Shown in pieces: positions 311-51,112 of a stretch of 64,000 nucleotides of DNA. The stretch lies in NCBI GenBank assembly GCA_021323705.1, contig JAJPKL010000029.1:1-64000 (forward strand), read 5' to 3'. The notes under the pieces were generated by a model. That model worked only from the letters and a program-made list of their open reading frames with translations. It was not told where the DNA came from and did no database searches. This DNA is from Nitrososphaerota archaeon. GTDB lineage: Archaea > Thermoproteota > Nitrososphaeria > Nitrososphaerales > Nitrosopumilaceae. Every line of letters starts with the position of its first letter. Position 1 is the first letter of the stretch. The translations under genes and the position numbers were made by a program.

Positions 311-3300
311 AAATGTTCTGTTAATCCCATGTCATCGGGATTGAATTTTGAGATTCTGTTATTGTTGGCATCTGCAACATAAATGCCATTGGAAGCGTCT
401 ACTGCAACTCCTATCGGTCCATCAAATTGGTTGCCTGCACTACCAGGTCCTGAACCAAATGTTTGAAGGAATGTTCCAGACGGGCTAAACTTTTCTATTC
501 TATCATTTCCAGCGTCTGCTATGTAGACGTTGTTGAAGCTGTCTATTGTAATACCAATTGGGCTGCGGAATTTACCTGGGTCGGTACCTGTTCCACCAAA
601 CGAACTTGTGGCAGTTCCGTCTGGTTTGAAAATCTCAGTTCTGTTGTTTCCAGTGTCAGTTACATACACGTATCCAGTACTATTTACTGCAATGCCCATG
701 GGACCAGTAAACTCTCCCAAACCAGTTCCAGTACCACTACCAAACGTTTGTAGGAGCGTTCCAGTAGAACTGAACTTCTTTACGAGGTCATGACCGGTGT
801 CTGCCACGTAAATATTGTTTGCAGAGTCCACTGCTACACCTGTTGGAATGTATAAACTTCCACTTCCAAACGAAGTTTTAAAAGTTCCAGACGCGTCTAG
901 TACATTTATCACATCATTTTGCGCGTCTGCAACAAACACAAAGCCAGTACTGTTTGCTGCTATACCAAAGGCAGCAGTCGAAGTTTTGTTGAACTGTACC
1001 ACACCTGCAGAGTTGAATTTTATAACATTGTCAGTTGCAGTAGCAACAAAAAAGTTTCCACTGCTGTCAAGAAAGAGGCTGTGCGGTAGTGCAACATCCA
1101 CCTGACTTGCAAGTGCATTGTTATTTGCATATGCAACAGAACCACCAAACTGGAACATCAGGTGGTGAGCACCATACGTCATGACACGTGAGACCTCAAA
1201 CCCTGTATTACTGCTTGAATAATTGTGATAAATTATTGAATTGCCCTGTATTGTAGGTGTAAGAGATGATACTCCATCGTTTAATTCTAGAAACTTGAGA
1301 TCTGCTGGAAGTGAACTGCCAAAGGTTGTTCCATTGATTGCTGTGATGTTGAGGTCTGCTGTTCCAGTAGTGTTAAAGTATACCGTCCAATCTCCTCCTA
1401 CCATTGGGTATGATTGTACGTTTATGACGGTTATCTCGGCGGTTATCTCAAACTGCTGCTGGGATAATTGTGGCACGACCCACTGCATTTGATCAGGAAT
1501 TCCGTTGCCGTTGGTATCTACAAGCGTTGCCTGAAACCTTGGATCTTTTGTAACATCAACATTTGAACCGTTTATCAACCAATGTAGCTTATACTGAACT
1601 CCTTTTTTGACCAGATCCTCGGAGATGACAGAAAATGCTGTTACATTGGTATAATGCAATGTAGAGTTTTGTTCCACTGATACAAATTTGTCAAACTTGA
1701 AAGCAGTCGAGACATCTTTTTCTGTGGTGTAAGGCGCTTGCGTCACGTAAACCATATCGTATCTGCTAGCAGAACTATCAACCAGTAGAAGTTTTGTCGG
1801 CTTGTCGGGTTGTACCATTTGAGGCAAAGATTGAGTGAGTGAGGCAACTGGAATGAACTGCTTTCCTAGGGTTATTGAAAACCCTGTCTGGTTGTTTACC
1901 TTTTGTATCTTTTTCAATAGAGTGGCATCTACGAATTTTGATTTTTCAAGTCCGGCTTCCTTTAGGCCGTTATTGTCAGATATTCCTACGGTGTTGTTGC
2001 CTTGAATGTTTTGGTGAGTTTTGAGTTTCTGATCTAAATTGCTTGTGCTGTCGAACAAGACATTTGTCTTCTTATCATGTGACGTAGCCAAGTATACGAA
2101 CTGTGCATTTGAAGGCATTTCAATTGCCATATTTTGAGATTGATTTGGAAGAACTATGTTTTCAGTCCATATCACAGGTTGGTTGACTATTATTTTCTCA
2201 TGTCTGAGATGAATGCCTGTAACATTAGTTGGTACAGTAATATTGGAAGGCAGAGTTGGAATCGTGACATTAGCCGTTATGGTAAGGTTGGTTAAGAGGG
2301 GTACTGTAACGTTTGTTGGAACTGCACTCATGTTGGTTAGTGCTTGTTCCATAAGAAGTCTTGAACCGGTATTGTAAAGCTGTTGAATCTCAGGAGGGGT
2401 GAGAAGAGAATTGTACACATTCACTTCGTCTATCTGCCCACCAAAAAGATTCTTGATTGTTATTTGATCTACCTTTCGTGTTTCCTGCGCCCCAATCAGC
2501 ACACTTGCATTGGACTGTATGTTTTGTACAGTTTTTGTCCTCAATTCTCCAAAAGAGGTAATTCCCAAGTTATATGCCGGCATTGTAGCCTCTTCGGTTC
2601 CGTTTACATAAAGCGCAATAGCGCTTGCATTAAAGGTTGCAGCTAAATGTGTCCACGATTGTGGTATCTTTGTCTTGGATTCTATTGTATGCCACTGAAC
2701 TCCATCATAGATTGAAAATACGGCATGCTTCTGTGGAGGGACGGTATTATGAATACCGAATAAAAATGCATTTTCTTTGCTGAGTATTGTAAAGTCAGAT
2801 GATCCTTTTTTGTAATCTGGTTTTATCCATGCAGAAAGAGTCATGTTTGATACGTTGTTTGTGGCAGTCATGTTTTGTGATACAAAGCCGCTTCCTTGAA
2901 GTGTAAGCGCGCTACCATTTACACCGTTTTTTGATATGGCTACTTCGCCAAACGTATCTGACGGAGCAATAGTATTTTGACTAAAGTTTAGCGATCCTAT
3001 TGGTGAGGGTATTTGTGTAATTGTAGCTGGCACGGTAGGAACAAACTTTCCTGCGGAGAATTTTTCATATAGATCGTATATCTGAGTTGAATTCAAAGAT
3101 TTGTCATAGATTGAAATCTCATCTATCAAGCCTGCAAAAGGATTCTTGGATGCAACCGTTCCTGCTCCCTGTGCACCAGTTGTTACATTGGAATTTGATT
3201 GGAGGCTATTGATAACCTGTGTCTCAATCTGACCGGAAGGAGATATGCCTACTATGTTTGCTGTACTGCTTGATTCTAAAACCCCGTTGACATACAGGCT

Positions 3301-5944: not shown

Positions 5945-6673
5945 ATGAAGGGATTACAGCAGCAAATAAAAACGCTAACCATAATGTCTATCTCAACAAC
6001 AATCATAGTCATCATAGTTGCGGTTCTTCATTTTTCTAGTACTAATAACGAATCAGCGACAGATTATGCAGTTTTAGATTCTGGAGGAGTACTAGTAAAA
6101 ACATGGGCGGCATGGCATCTTGACAAAGATGAACCGCTACACGTGAGAATAATAAACTCTACACTTGAATCAAGTAACCAATATTCTGCTATTAATGACG
6201 CAATAATGTCAGAAGATCACCTAACGTATGAAAATCCAACTCAGGCAGTTTATTACGTTGGTTGGAATGATGCGCTAGGAAGCGTGAAGGGATTGAAAAC
6301 AAAGTATGCCATTCCTCAAATCAGCCTCAGCAAGACTGACAATGAGGTAGGGGATGTTATAATTCGCTTAACTGATACGAAAGATCCAAAGTACTCTGGT
6401 TTTACAAAATCAATAATTGACACAAAAAACCACCAGATTTTAAAAAGCATAATAACAATCTACGATGTAAAAGATCTGACTGATACACAAATTGAGGCTG
6501 TCGTGAGACATGAGATGGGACATGCCCTGGGGTTGGGTGATGCAGAGGGCGAAAATGATTTGATGAATCACGTGATTGATCTAAAATATTCATACATAAC
6601 GCAATGCGATGTTCAATCAATAATTATATTGTACAATGATACTGACTCTCAAAAAGTTCACTGTGCAAAATAA
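5930..6673 (+). CDS. Matrixin-like metalloprotease with N-terminal membrane anchor, Asp as third zinc ligand
   Basis: The N-terminal segment (residues about 15-35) is a hydrophobic anchor. The zinc site reads HEMGHALGLGD, that is HExxHxxGxxD, with Asp where most metzincins have His. This variant is known from snapalysins (family M7). A Met-turn (NDLMNHV) follows. Much of the protein aligns by eye with the product at 49733-50560 (shared GFTKSI, QILKS, ITIYD, RHExGHALGL), so the two are paralogues. The start is GTG 5930 or ATG 5945. The active site should face outward. Substrate unknown. Confidence 0.72.
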   Translation: MVKNKMKGLQQQIKTLTIMSISTTIIVIIVAVLHFSSTNNESATDYAVLDSGGVLVKTWAAWHLDKDEPLHVRIINSTLESSNQYSAINDAIMSEDHLTYENPTQAVYYVGWNDALGSVKGLKTKYAIPQISLSKTDNEVGDVIIRLTDTKDPKYSGFTKSIIDTKNHQILKSIITIYDVKDLTDTQIEAVVRHEMGHALGLGDAEGENDLMNHVIDLKYSYITQCDVQSIIILYNDTDSQKVHCAK

Positions 6674-47928: not shown

Positions 47929-49668
47929 TTATGAGGTATTAGTAGGAATGCTAAACCAGAATGTAGTGCCCTTGCCTACATCACTTTCAAACCATATTTT
48001 GCCGCCGAGTCCTTCAACTAATCCTTTGCATATCACCAATCCCAAGCCAGTGCCTCCATGCTGTCTTTTCAGGGAGGAGTCTATCTGATAAAACTTCTTG
48101 AAGAGATTGGCCTGTTTGTCTTTTGGTATACCAATACCATTATCCTTGACAAAAAACACAGCTTGGTTACCCTCATCTTTAACACCAATCTCAATTTTTC
48201 CGCCAGTTGAGGGAACAAAATCTATCGAGTTTCTAATGAGGTTGTCAAACACTTGGGAGAGTCTGTCCTTGTCACTCTTTATAGTGAATTTCACATTCGT
48301 AATATTTTTGAAGTCTATTTTTTTATCTTTTGTAACAACCAGATATGTTTGCACTATGTTGTTCATAAAACTCTCGACATCAAAATCCGCAATATTGAAA
48401 TGCAGTTTATTCAGGTCAATCTTCTGGGCTACGAGAATATCGCCTATGAGACTCTCAAGTTTTTTTGATGATGCATAAATCTTGTTTACCGCGTCTTCTT
48501 GTTCATTATTCAGCGTCCCTAACAATCCTCGTTCTTTAAGCATCTCACTATAGCCGTTTATTGTAACAAGAGGCGTTTTCAATTCATGTGTTACCATTGT
48601 TGCAAACTCTTCTTTAGCCGTGTCAGCCTCTCGCAATTTCTGAGAATGAACCTGTAACTCTATGTTGGATTTTTCAAGTTCTTTTGCTAGCTTGACCCTG
48701 TCGCGGAATGCCTTGTAAAGGAAATAGCCTGCAACAGATACTATTGCCAGGACCAGAATGGACAGGATGATAGATTCTTGTACTGTCTCATTTACTGAAT
48801 GAAATGCCTCATCATAAGGCTGTATTGATACTACGGCCCATCTGGTCTGGCCTACTGATAGTGGAGCATATGCTGTGAACATGTTTGTGCCATTTATTAT
48901 GTTACTAGCTGTTCCGTTTTCTCCTGCAAGAGCCTTTTGAAATACATCAACTCCAGTCATGTGTCTGATCTCTGATGAAGTGCCTTCAGAGTCTGCAACT
49001 ATAGCTCCGGTGTTGTCCACCACAATTACTCTTTCTGAACTGTACAGTTTTGAACTCTCCACTTCTTTTTTGAATTTATCTAGACTAAACGAGCCAGTCA
49101 AAAGTCCCAAGAGAGTGCTATTTTTGGAAAAAACAGGTATCGCGATTACTACGTTTGGTTTTCCACTTGATTTTGAAACTACTACTTGACTTACATAGAT
49201 GTTATCACTGGATATTGCACCCTTGTACCAATCTCTAAATGCAAAGTTGGATGTTGTCATGTTTTTTTGGAAAACAAACGGCTCGTTGATATATACGTCA
49301 CCGTTTGGAAGAACAAAAAGCAGATTTTGAAACTGATTGTCATTATCGTAAATGTCACGCATCACTTTTCTTCTTTCCATGTCCACATTCTGAGGAATCC
49401 CATGCAGGTTGGTATTGATAGAAGAAGTATTAACAGGACTCATCATATGATCATTCCTGCTTGCAATTTGTAGAATTGTTATAGCTTTACTGATACCTGC
49501 ATCAATTCTATCTGCAAGTTGGTTTATGAGTATAGATCTTTCTTCTTTTACAACAGTTGTAGCATGTTTTATCTGATCCTGTGTATAAAATACAATAATT
49601 ATCAGTAATGCTATCGTTGTTGCAATGAGCACAAATAGAATGCCTTGGACCTGTAATTTTGTACTCAT
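47929..49668 (-). CDS. Membrane histidine kinase with extracellular Cache-like sensor
   Basis: Two membrane helices (residues ~5-30 and ~305-325) flank an extracellular dCache-like domain with FAFRDWYKG and VSKSSGKPNVVIAIPVFSK. Then come a short coiled coil, HisKA with MVTHELKTPLVTINGYSEM (the phosphorylated His), and HATPase with NLIRNSIDF, VKDNGIGIPKD and HGGTGLGLVICKGL. ATG 49668 is preferred to GTG 49680. It is the last of three same-strand genes after the response regulator (51112) and the metalloprotease. Confidence 0.88.
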   Translation of the reverse strand: MSTKLQVQGILFVLIATTIALLIIIVFYTQDQIKHATTVVKEERSILINQLADRIDAGISKAITILQIASRNDHMMSPVNTSSINTNLHGIPQNVDMERRKVMRDIYDNDNQFQNLLFVLPNGDVYINEPFVFQKNMTTSNFAFRDWYKGAISSDNIYVSQVVVSKSSGKPNVVIAIPVFSKNSTLLGLLTGSFSLDKFKKEVESSKLYSSERVIVVDNTGAIVADSEGTSSEIRHMTGVDVFQKALAGENGTASNIINGTNMFTAYAPLSVGQTRWAVVSIQPYDEAFHSVNETVQESIILSILVLAIVSVAGYFLYKAFRDRVKLAKELEKSNIELQVHSQKLREADTAKEEFATMVTHELKTPLVTINGYSEMLKERGLLGTLNNEQEDAVNKIYASSKKLESLIGDILVAQKIDLNKLHFNIADFDVESFMNNIVQTYLVVTKDKKIDFKNITNVKFTIKSDKDRLSQVFDNLIRNSIDFVPSTGGKIEIGVKDEGNQAVFFVKDNGIGIPKDKQANLFKKFYQIDSSLKRQHGGTGLGLVICKGLVEGLGGKIWFESDVGKGTTFWFSIPTNTS

Positions 49669-49732
49669 TTCACATCCCACGATTTGTGGACAAGTAAAGA
49701 AATAATGTTAGTTTTGAATGAGCGCAAGACAG

Positions 49733-50560
49733 TCATTGACATATTACTTGGCTCCGCTCATCACCACTATACAATCCCTTGATTGCGTCAATGTCACATC
49801 CGGAGATGTACGGATAATCAGTTCTTATAGTAGCATGCATGAGATCAGAGGGATCTGTCGAGTGTGCAAGCCCTAATGCATGACCAAATTCATGTCTTGT
49901 GATGGCTCCAAGTTGTAAAGATGATAACTGGCTTGCGTCGTAAATCGTTATTTTGCTCTTTAGAATTTGGTTTCCATCAGAAATGGATTTGGTAAATCCC
50001 GACAAGCCATCGGGATTTTCGTCATTTGTAAGTGTTATTACAATATCCCCTGCACCATTACTTTCTTCTGATATTGCAAATGTCTGTGGTATGAAGAATT
50101 TGGTTGGCGATCGCTGCAAGTCAGCTAGTGCGCCTTCCCATCCTTTATAACGAGTTGATGAAGTTCCTGAGGGCCCTTCGTGTAATAATGAATTGTCTAC
50201 AGTAATGGTCTCATTTGATAATATGGCATTTTTTACCGCGTTTATCTTATCATCTGGAAGATTAGCATCATTTACTATGCTCACATGCAAGACCTGTCCC
50301 TGTAACAAATTCCAAGACACCCAAGTGTTAACAACCGTCCCTTGCAAGTTCTGAATGACATAATTCGAATTATAATGTTCAAGCAAATGCGTTGTTGCGT
50401 TAGCAAGCAGCTGATTCTCGTAGTAGGAATATCCTATAAATGCAGAAGCAGCACCTACAACAATCATAGCAATCAAAATAAAAGTCCTTTTGCCAATCTT
50501 TTCTGCCTTTTTTTCGCTTGATTGTGAAATTTCATCTAGAATTAATTTCTCCTGTTCCAA
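49733..50560 (-). CDS. Matrixin-like metalloprotease with N-terminal coiled coil and membrane helix
   Basis: The zinc motif is HEFGHALGLAHS (HExxHxxGxxH), with Met-turn DLMHAT. A membrane helix (TFILIAMIVVGAASAFIGYS) precedes the catalytic region, so the protease faces outward. It is a paralogue of the protein at 5930. The only conventional start in this frame is TTG 50560. Upstream the same frame stays open for 65 more codons (50561-50755), encodes a Glu/Lys coiled coil, and ends at the TAG stop of the response regulator gene. CTG 50752 is the only early non-standard start. The cut between regulator and protease is therefore unclear. Confidence 0.72.
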   Translation of the reverse strand: MEQEKLILDEISQSSEKKAEKIGKRTFILIAMIVVGAASAFIGYSYYENQLLANATTHLLEHYNSNYVIQNLQGTVVNTWVSWNLLQGQVLHVSIVNDANLPDDKINAVKNAILSNETITVDNSLLHEGPSGTSSTRYKGWEGALADLQRSPTKFFIPQTFAISEESNGAGDIVITLTNDENPDGLSGFTKSISDGNQILKSKITIYDASQLSSLQLGAITRHEFGHALGLAHSTDPSDLMHATIRTDYPYISGCDIDAIKGLYSGDERSQVICQ

Positions 50561-50755
50561 CTCTTTTGATTTTTTTATCTCCTCCTCAAGCCTCTTTTCA
50601 AGATTGTCCTTTGATTTTGCTAGTCCTTCAGTCTTTTCCGATAAGATTTCATTTGTTTCGCTTAGTATGATTTTTTCCTGCTCAAGTTCCTTGATTACAG
50701 AATTGTCGTTTGAAGGCGCTGATTCATTTTGTTTCTCATCGTCTGATGTCAGAGC

Positions 50756-51112
50756 CTATCCTCCAATGGCTTTTAGCAGTACTTCTAGTTTGACGGGTTT
50801 CTTGATACAGGAATACACTCCCTTTTCAACAAGTCCTCTTATCTCTTCATCCTTGACACTTGAAGCTGTAAACAAGATTATTTTCTGATCATTTATCCTA
50901 CCTGTCCTGTAAAGATCATTGACAATATCAACACCGGTAAATTCCGGCATTGCTAAGTCAAGCAAGACAACATCAAATCTTTGTTTTTCTAAAAGAGCGA
51001 GTCCATTTCTTCCATCATTTGAGATTATGCATTCATGACCTTTGAGGGTCAAGTACTTCTGCATCATGTTGGTTATTTCCTTGTTATCATCTATTAGCAA
51101 AATTTGCACCAC
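50756..51112 (-). CDS. Response regulator receiver domain, stop codon in frame with downstream coiled-coil protease
   Basis: A 118-residue receiver: LLIDDNKEITN (acidic pair), VVLLDLAMPEFTG (phosphoacceptor Asp), ILFTASS (Thr/Ser) and IKKPVK (Lys). It starts at GTG 51112 with GAGGTG eight bases upstream as a ribosome site. Its TAG at 50756-50758 (after KAIGG) is in frame with the following coiled coil. It is probably the partner of the kinase gene at 47929. Confidence 0.82.
   Translation of the reverse strand: MVQILLIDDNKEITNMMQKYLTLKGHECIISNDGRNGLALLEKQRFDVVLLDLAMPEFTGVDIVNDLYRTGRINDQKIILFTASSVKDEEIRGLVEKGVYSCIKKPVKLEVLLKAIGG

Follow-up and report, generated by a model that had tools for sequence, protein, structure and literature searches.

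A receiver–matrixin gene pair of Nitrosopumilaceae archaea with a probable conserved non-AUG protease start beside the receiver stop codon

On the reverse strand of a 64,000-nt stretch of DNA from a Nitrosopumilaceae archaeon (the window), a gene for a response-regulator receiver ends in a stop codon behind which the same frame runs on into a membrane-anchored metalloprotease, and the locus raises the question of whether this is one interrupted gene or two, and, if two, where translation of the second begins. Translation of positions 51112-49733 (-) bears out the layout of the original prediction: the receiver ends in TAG at 50758-50756, the frame continues in phase into the protease for 340 open codons up to TGA at 49735-49733, the first ATG, GTG or TTG past the TAG is the TTG at 50560-50558, 195 nt or 65 codons later, and a CTG is located at 50752-50750. 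That prediction considered a non-standard start at the CTG, readthrough of the stop codon, and an ancestral fused gene with a recent nonsense mutation or sequencing error. On the comparative evidence presented below, the receiver and the matrixin are two separate, co-directed genes, and these most probably yield a separate receiver and a membrane matrixin by termination-reinitiation at CTG 50752.

The receiver, a stand-alone response regulator of 118 aa with a GTG start (50756-51112, reverse strand, as are all features of the locus), contains the full Pfam PF00072 Response_reg domain (E 5e-20; residues 4-116 of 118, profile positions 1-110 of 111). The CTG proposed as the protease start (50750-50752) lies 3 nt past the TAG, and the protease (49733-50752) comprises 339 aa counted from it. 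A Glu/Lys-rich coiled coil on the cytoplasmic side (50489-50701, about codons 18-88, supported by dN/dS and alignment) is followed by a single transmembrane segment recognized from the sequence (50426-50485, about codons 90-109), whose Lys/Arg-rich N side suggests an N-in/C-out topology. The zinc-binding motif HEFGHALGLAH (49862-49894) was located in two alignments, one of them of 14 species, and the Met of the Met-turn stands eight residues past it. The protein matches Pfam PF00413 (Peptidase_M10, matrixin; E 1.9e-9) above the cut-off, and matrix metalloproteinases (MMPs) in the PDB with E values down to 9e-9, so that profile score, HExxHxxGxxH and Met-turn all identify it as a matrixin. It shares the motif and the Met-turn with known M10 matrixins such as MMP-20 and MMP-8, but differs from them in its N-terminal cytoplasmic coil and membrane anchor and in its pairing with a receiver. 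The cysteine-switch propeptide is a feature of MMP zymogens and not of all M10 proteins; the window protein sequence has no Cys N-terminal to the catalytic domain and therefore lacks a switch of the MMP type. An AlphaFold2 model of the protease built from five sequences has a mean pLDDT of 38, with some confidence for a long helix only. The next gene downstream (47929-49680) encodes a membrane dCache histidine kinase (Pfam dCache_1, HisKA, HATPase_c), and a homologue of this kinase, with the N-terminus MSTKLQ(V/I)QGI, also follows the protease in loci L005 and L007. Two more matrixin paralogues are present in the same genome, at positions 6059-6664 (+) of the window and at G000:C24:3135-3929.

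The segment between the TAG and the TTG had been described as a coding-like coiled coil, and it does evolve as protein. For codons 2-64, which precede TTG 50560, dN/dS is 0.16 between the window and its nearest relative (G026, 86% identical) and 0.08-0.47 in other pairs; by this measure the coiled coil is coding and under purifying selection, and the lack of conservation that would have spoken against the prediction was not found. Codons 2-20 are less constrained, with dN/dS from 0.2 to above 1, that is, with little or no purifying selection; this fits a disordered tail and is where the start assignment is most vulnerable.

Orthologue searches covered the genus and the family; the nearest orthologues of the protease are 86, 74 and 72% identical, many more distant ones were found besides, and the receiver–protease pair is kept in the window's species and 13 others of the genus, 14 in all, the receivers directly upstream of the protease in the other 13 being 61-84% identical to the window's. 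A run of 64 codons without ATG, GTG or TTG is expected by chance in about 6% of cases, given the codon frequencies of the ectodomain, and is not very rare alone; among 359 ORFs from 407 kb of the window's own genome, five have an equally long start lag, the genes being called, as for the Shine-Dalgarno (SD) counts below, by a simple ORF rule and not by a gene finder. It is the repetition of the missing standard starts across species that, as read from the alignments, is beyond chance. No standard start ahead of the membrane anchor is conserved across the 14 species, and in four of them (G026, G035, G025, G002) the stretch of protease frame that leads from the receiver stop to the membrane segment contains no ATG, GTG or TTG. 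The sole standard codon in this interval is a TTG at the proposed start in G020 and a GTG abutting the receiver stop in G029.

The proposed start column is occupied by a near-cognate codon in all 14 species (CTG in four, TTG in one, ATT in eight, ATC in one), in support of the CTG option of the original prediction, and among the first 100 columns only this one and one Ile/Met column of the coil hold ATG or a single mismatch to it throughout. The following residue is Ala, Ser or Thr in 14/14 species vs a background of 16%; such second residues are often seen at genuine N-termini. Because the species are related, neither count represents 14 independent events. In a tree of the ectodomain, partly weakly supported, neither the CTG species nor the ATT species form one clade, which suggests that the start codon has changed more than once without ever settling on ATG. 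The proposed start lies at a very short distance from the receiver stop, as in known termination-reinitiation pairs: 3 nt in the window's group, 5 nt in G021, G002, G019 and G018, and 6 nt in G033, G029, G028, G003 and G016. A conserved near-cognate column with no standard start ahead of the conserved coding sequence is found with exceptions, namely the TTG of G020 and, in G029 and G016, a GTG directly past the stop that could be the start used in these two species. We infer from these comparisons that CTG 50752 serves as the start in the window.

Two readings would place the start further into the coil. The rather unlikely one of a non-AUG start at the near-cognate ATC, ATA or ATT codon heading IKELEQEK, about codon 20, would account for the poor conservation of codons 2-20, and the Ile codon at column 22 is near-cognate in 13/14 species; however, G025 has CTA there, and the column's distance from the stop, about 60 nt, exceeds the reach of reinitiation measured in Haloferax (PMC10666635). 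Standard annotation rules would instead let the protease begin on a standard codon within the coil or at the membrane helix, in the window at TTG 50558-50560, which is a legal start, and leave the upstream coil as a leftover. This is quite unlikely given the purifying selection on codons 2-64 and the scatter of the first standard codon among species (codon 65 in the window, 41 in three species, then 48, 53, 75, 77 and 88-99). TTG 50560 itself is rejected for its non-conservation, its column holding CTA, CTG, CTC or TTA in 12 of the 13 others and TTG in one other orthologue. Separate genes with a conserved protease start after the coil had been named as an outcome contrary to the original prediction; the genes are indeed separate, but the proposed start precedes the coil.

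That the protease has a start of its own follows from the comparison of the pairs. The position of the TAG is taken by a stop codon and never by a sense codon in all 14 (TAG in one, TAA in four, TGA in nine), the bases behind the stop differ among orthologues, and in four species (G021, G002, G019, G018) the protease lies in a different frame from the receiver. An assembly error is unlikely to explain the frame-shifted cases, since one of them, G002, is a single-contig genome. With the stop kept but variable, and the protease out of frame in four species, the protease must be initiated on its own. Programmed readthrough, by which the receiver stop would be passed occasionally to give a small amount of a receiver-coil-protease fusion, is very unlikely; the frame is open directly past the stop in 10/14 species, and paralogues with receiver and matrixin in a single ORF exist (L199, G032), but a fusion made in this way could not persist while stop identity and protease frame change between species, and readthrough is contradicted as a conserved mechanism. 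That a single ancestral gene was recently broken by a nonsense mutation, or only seems broken through a sequencing error, is compatible with the continuous frame in the window's genome but can practically be dismissed, as a stop occupies this position in each of the other 13 pairs, none of which has a fused ORF, and receiver ORFs are separate in outgroups of other genera too.

A further element of the junction, not mentioned in the original prediction, is the SD-like sequence GGAGG (50760-50764), located within the final receiver codons 7 nt ahead of the CTG. No 16S match was found in the window's own genome, and the anti-SD was therefore read from a relative, G035, whose 16S 3' end reads GGATCACCTCCTTAG. 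A gene of the own genome was counted as coupled (n=57) if its ATG is conserved in G002 and a neighbour of the same direction lies at a distance of -15 to +25 nt; 15/57 have an anti-SD match of at least 5 nt vs 2/57 in a control stretch, while the 259 other genes display no clear excess (17 vs 9), indicating that SD use here belongs mainly to coupled genes. The window junction, GGAGG-ATAGGCT-CTG, has a 5-nt match at an aligned spacing of 7, within the span of 6-13 of ATG-started coupled genes. Of 11 representative junctions, six, the window's included, carry a 5-6-nt match at a spacing of 7-10 (7 in G026 and G025, 9 in G021, 10 in G033 and G029); the other five (G035, G020, G002, G019, G018), with sequences of the GGGGG and AGGGG types, lack even a 4-nt anti-SD match. 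Since GGAGG also encodes the Gly-Gly of the receiver, it supports an SD role and does not prove it.

The preferred reading, termination-reinitiation at CTG 50752, would operate as follows. The receiver would be translated and terminated at its own stop codon, and the terminating ribosome, or its small subunit, would be held by the SD-like sequence in the last receiver codons and reinitiate at a nearby non-AUG codon, which is CTG 50752, 3 nt past the stop, in this genome and ATT, ATC or TTG in relatives. The product of 339 aa would consist of a short acidic tail, the cytoplasmic coiled coil, one membrane helix and the extracellular matrixin domain. The poor start codon would probably keep protease output well below that of the receiver and tied to receiver translation. 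Phosphate is likely supplied by the downstream Cache histidine kinase, and the phosphorylated receiver probably binds the protease coiled coil, so that the simplest chain would run from Cache kinase to receiver to protease coil. What the sequences show directly is two genes, their conserved pairing, a coding coil, a near-cognate start column and an SD match at several junctions; the use of CTG, the coupling, the stoichiometry and the kinase-receiver and receiver-coil contacts are what we infer.

In archaea, termination-reinitiation across very short distances has been established for Haloferax; it needs overlaps or distances of a few nt, and an SD in the upstream gene is frequent (PMC6728339, PMC10666635). 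The pair described here resembles those pairs in the few nt between stop and proposed start, in the SD match within the upstream gene at six of the 11 junctions, and in the likely functional linkage of the partners, but the known pairs start with ATG, GTG or TTG, typically in ATGA or TGATG overlaps, whereas here CTG, ATT or ATC stands at +3 to +6 nt. Archaeal start codons are given as AUG, GUG and UUG in a review of initiation in that domain, from whose text the terms 'non-AUG' and 'AUU' are absent (PMC7531240). In E. coli, ATT is a very weak start, at about 0.3% of ATG by the figure cited second-hand in PMC10666635, and a reconstruction over 36 prokaryotic groups counted two switches from AUG to CUG and one to AUU among 61,358 (PMC5622118). 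To explain the locus by a coupled gene with a conserved non-AUG start is unusual, but this is the explanation that survives the comparisons made here. The locus also has parallels among known systems. Bacterial genes such as infC carry a conserved AUU start, and the likeness is that of a poor non-AUG start conserved across species; the present case differs in its archaeal initiation factors, in the gene concerned and in the absence of any sign of autoregulation. Like two-component systems with a stand-alone receiver, the locus clusters the receiver gene with that of a histidine kinase, but its probable output is a membrane protease and not a domain borne by the receiver.

A survey for other start anomalies, in which 0.74 Mb of the own genome was compared with 1.6 Mb of G002, listed 33 candidates, most of which appeared by eye to be out-of-frame or antisense overlaps with other genes; it is blind to cases such as the receiver–protease pair of G002, in which the open frame extends back into the upstream gene. 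The only convincing start case was UPP synthase (G000:C6:12360-13151; L081, L096-L107), which has no ATG, GTG or TTG for 54 codons in the window's genome and aligns from the first few residues of the stop-to-stop frame in most genomes of the genus. With an ATA start, the gene would overlap the stop codon (TAA) of another frame upstream, and this ATAA is kept in 12/12 loci read; for other genera, the first aligned residue is one of residues 2-5, and in 9/17 genomes it is exactly residue 5, the ATA codon. UPP synthase with an ATA start in an ATAA overlap is a candidate for a second non-AUG case in the genus. Additionally, ORFs of 436 and 978 codons on the reverse strands of L078 and L089, transporter-like and enzyme-like, respectively, have 103 and 88 coding-looking codons before a standard start, which may reflect a non-AUG start, a frameshift or an assembly error.

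The gene carB was rejected as a start anomaly, as it carries an intron-like insert. This insert of 20, 21 or 22 nt (AGTCAC-loop-GTGACCGYCAA; L085 reverse strand, about 3090-3270, G000:C10:6440-6593; L214-L243) separates GEAGE from FDYSGSQ in 30/30 loci of the genus. The insert is predicted to fold as a bulge-helix-bulge, its pairs vary in a compensatory manner (GTCAC/GTGAC, GTCAT/ATGAC, GTCAG/CTGAC), and leaving it out restores a canonical CarB in all 30 loci; it is a candidate for a mini-intron of the tRNA type within a protein-coding gene, on which no matching paper was found in the part of the literature covered.

The matrixin ectodomain also occurs in other arrangements across the family. 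Joined to dCache, multi-helix membrane, long coiled-coil or HisKA modules, it is found in L191, L192, L203, L200, L196, L022, L038, L044 and L050; L191 and L192 are dCache-matrixins, and L038, L050, L044 and L022 are HisKA-matrixins of the same ectodomain type that lack the kinase ATPase domain. In two species of the genus (L199, L245), one ORF spans receiver, membrane helix and matrixin. That of L199 (1495-3006, reverse strand) matches Response_reg (3e-18) and Matrixin, and the other, a 500-aa ORF of G032, is a candidate for a similar receiver-matrixin. HisKA-matrixins, too, directly follow a stand-alone receiver, which shares 45-54% identity with that of the window. These fusions and receiver-adjacent HisKA-matrixins make a functional receiver-protease link likely. 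Of the proposal that a fusion at this locus would place an extracellular protease under receiver control, the fusion itself did not hold, while the idea of control gains indirect backing from other members of the family in which a matrixin is truly fused to a receiver or to HisKA. In the part of the literature covered, no paper on the receiver–protease pair or on receiver-matrixin systems was found.

Gene finders accept only ATG, GTG and TTG, and such genes are consequently truncated or mis-split; here the entire cytoplasmic coil would be lost. A conserved archaeal CTG or ATT start would also provide a natural test of initiation factors on near-cognate codons during reinitiation. It may be suggested, tentatively, that the clade keeps non-AUG starts (CTG, ATT, ATA) at coupled second genes so that the downstream protein would be made only by ribosomes coming from the upstream gene, which would cap matrixin synthesis and couple it to that of the receiver, within a larger family of matrixins serving as outputs of receiver, HisKA, Cache and multi-helix sensor modules. 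The receiver, HisKA and Cache fusions point to signal-controlled surface proteolysis in these archaea.
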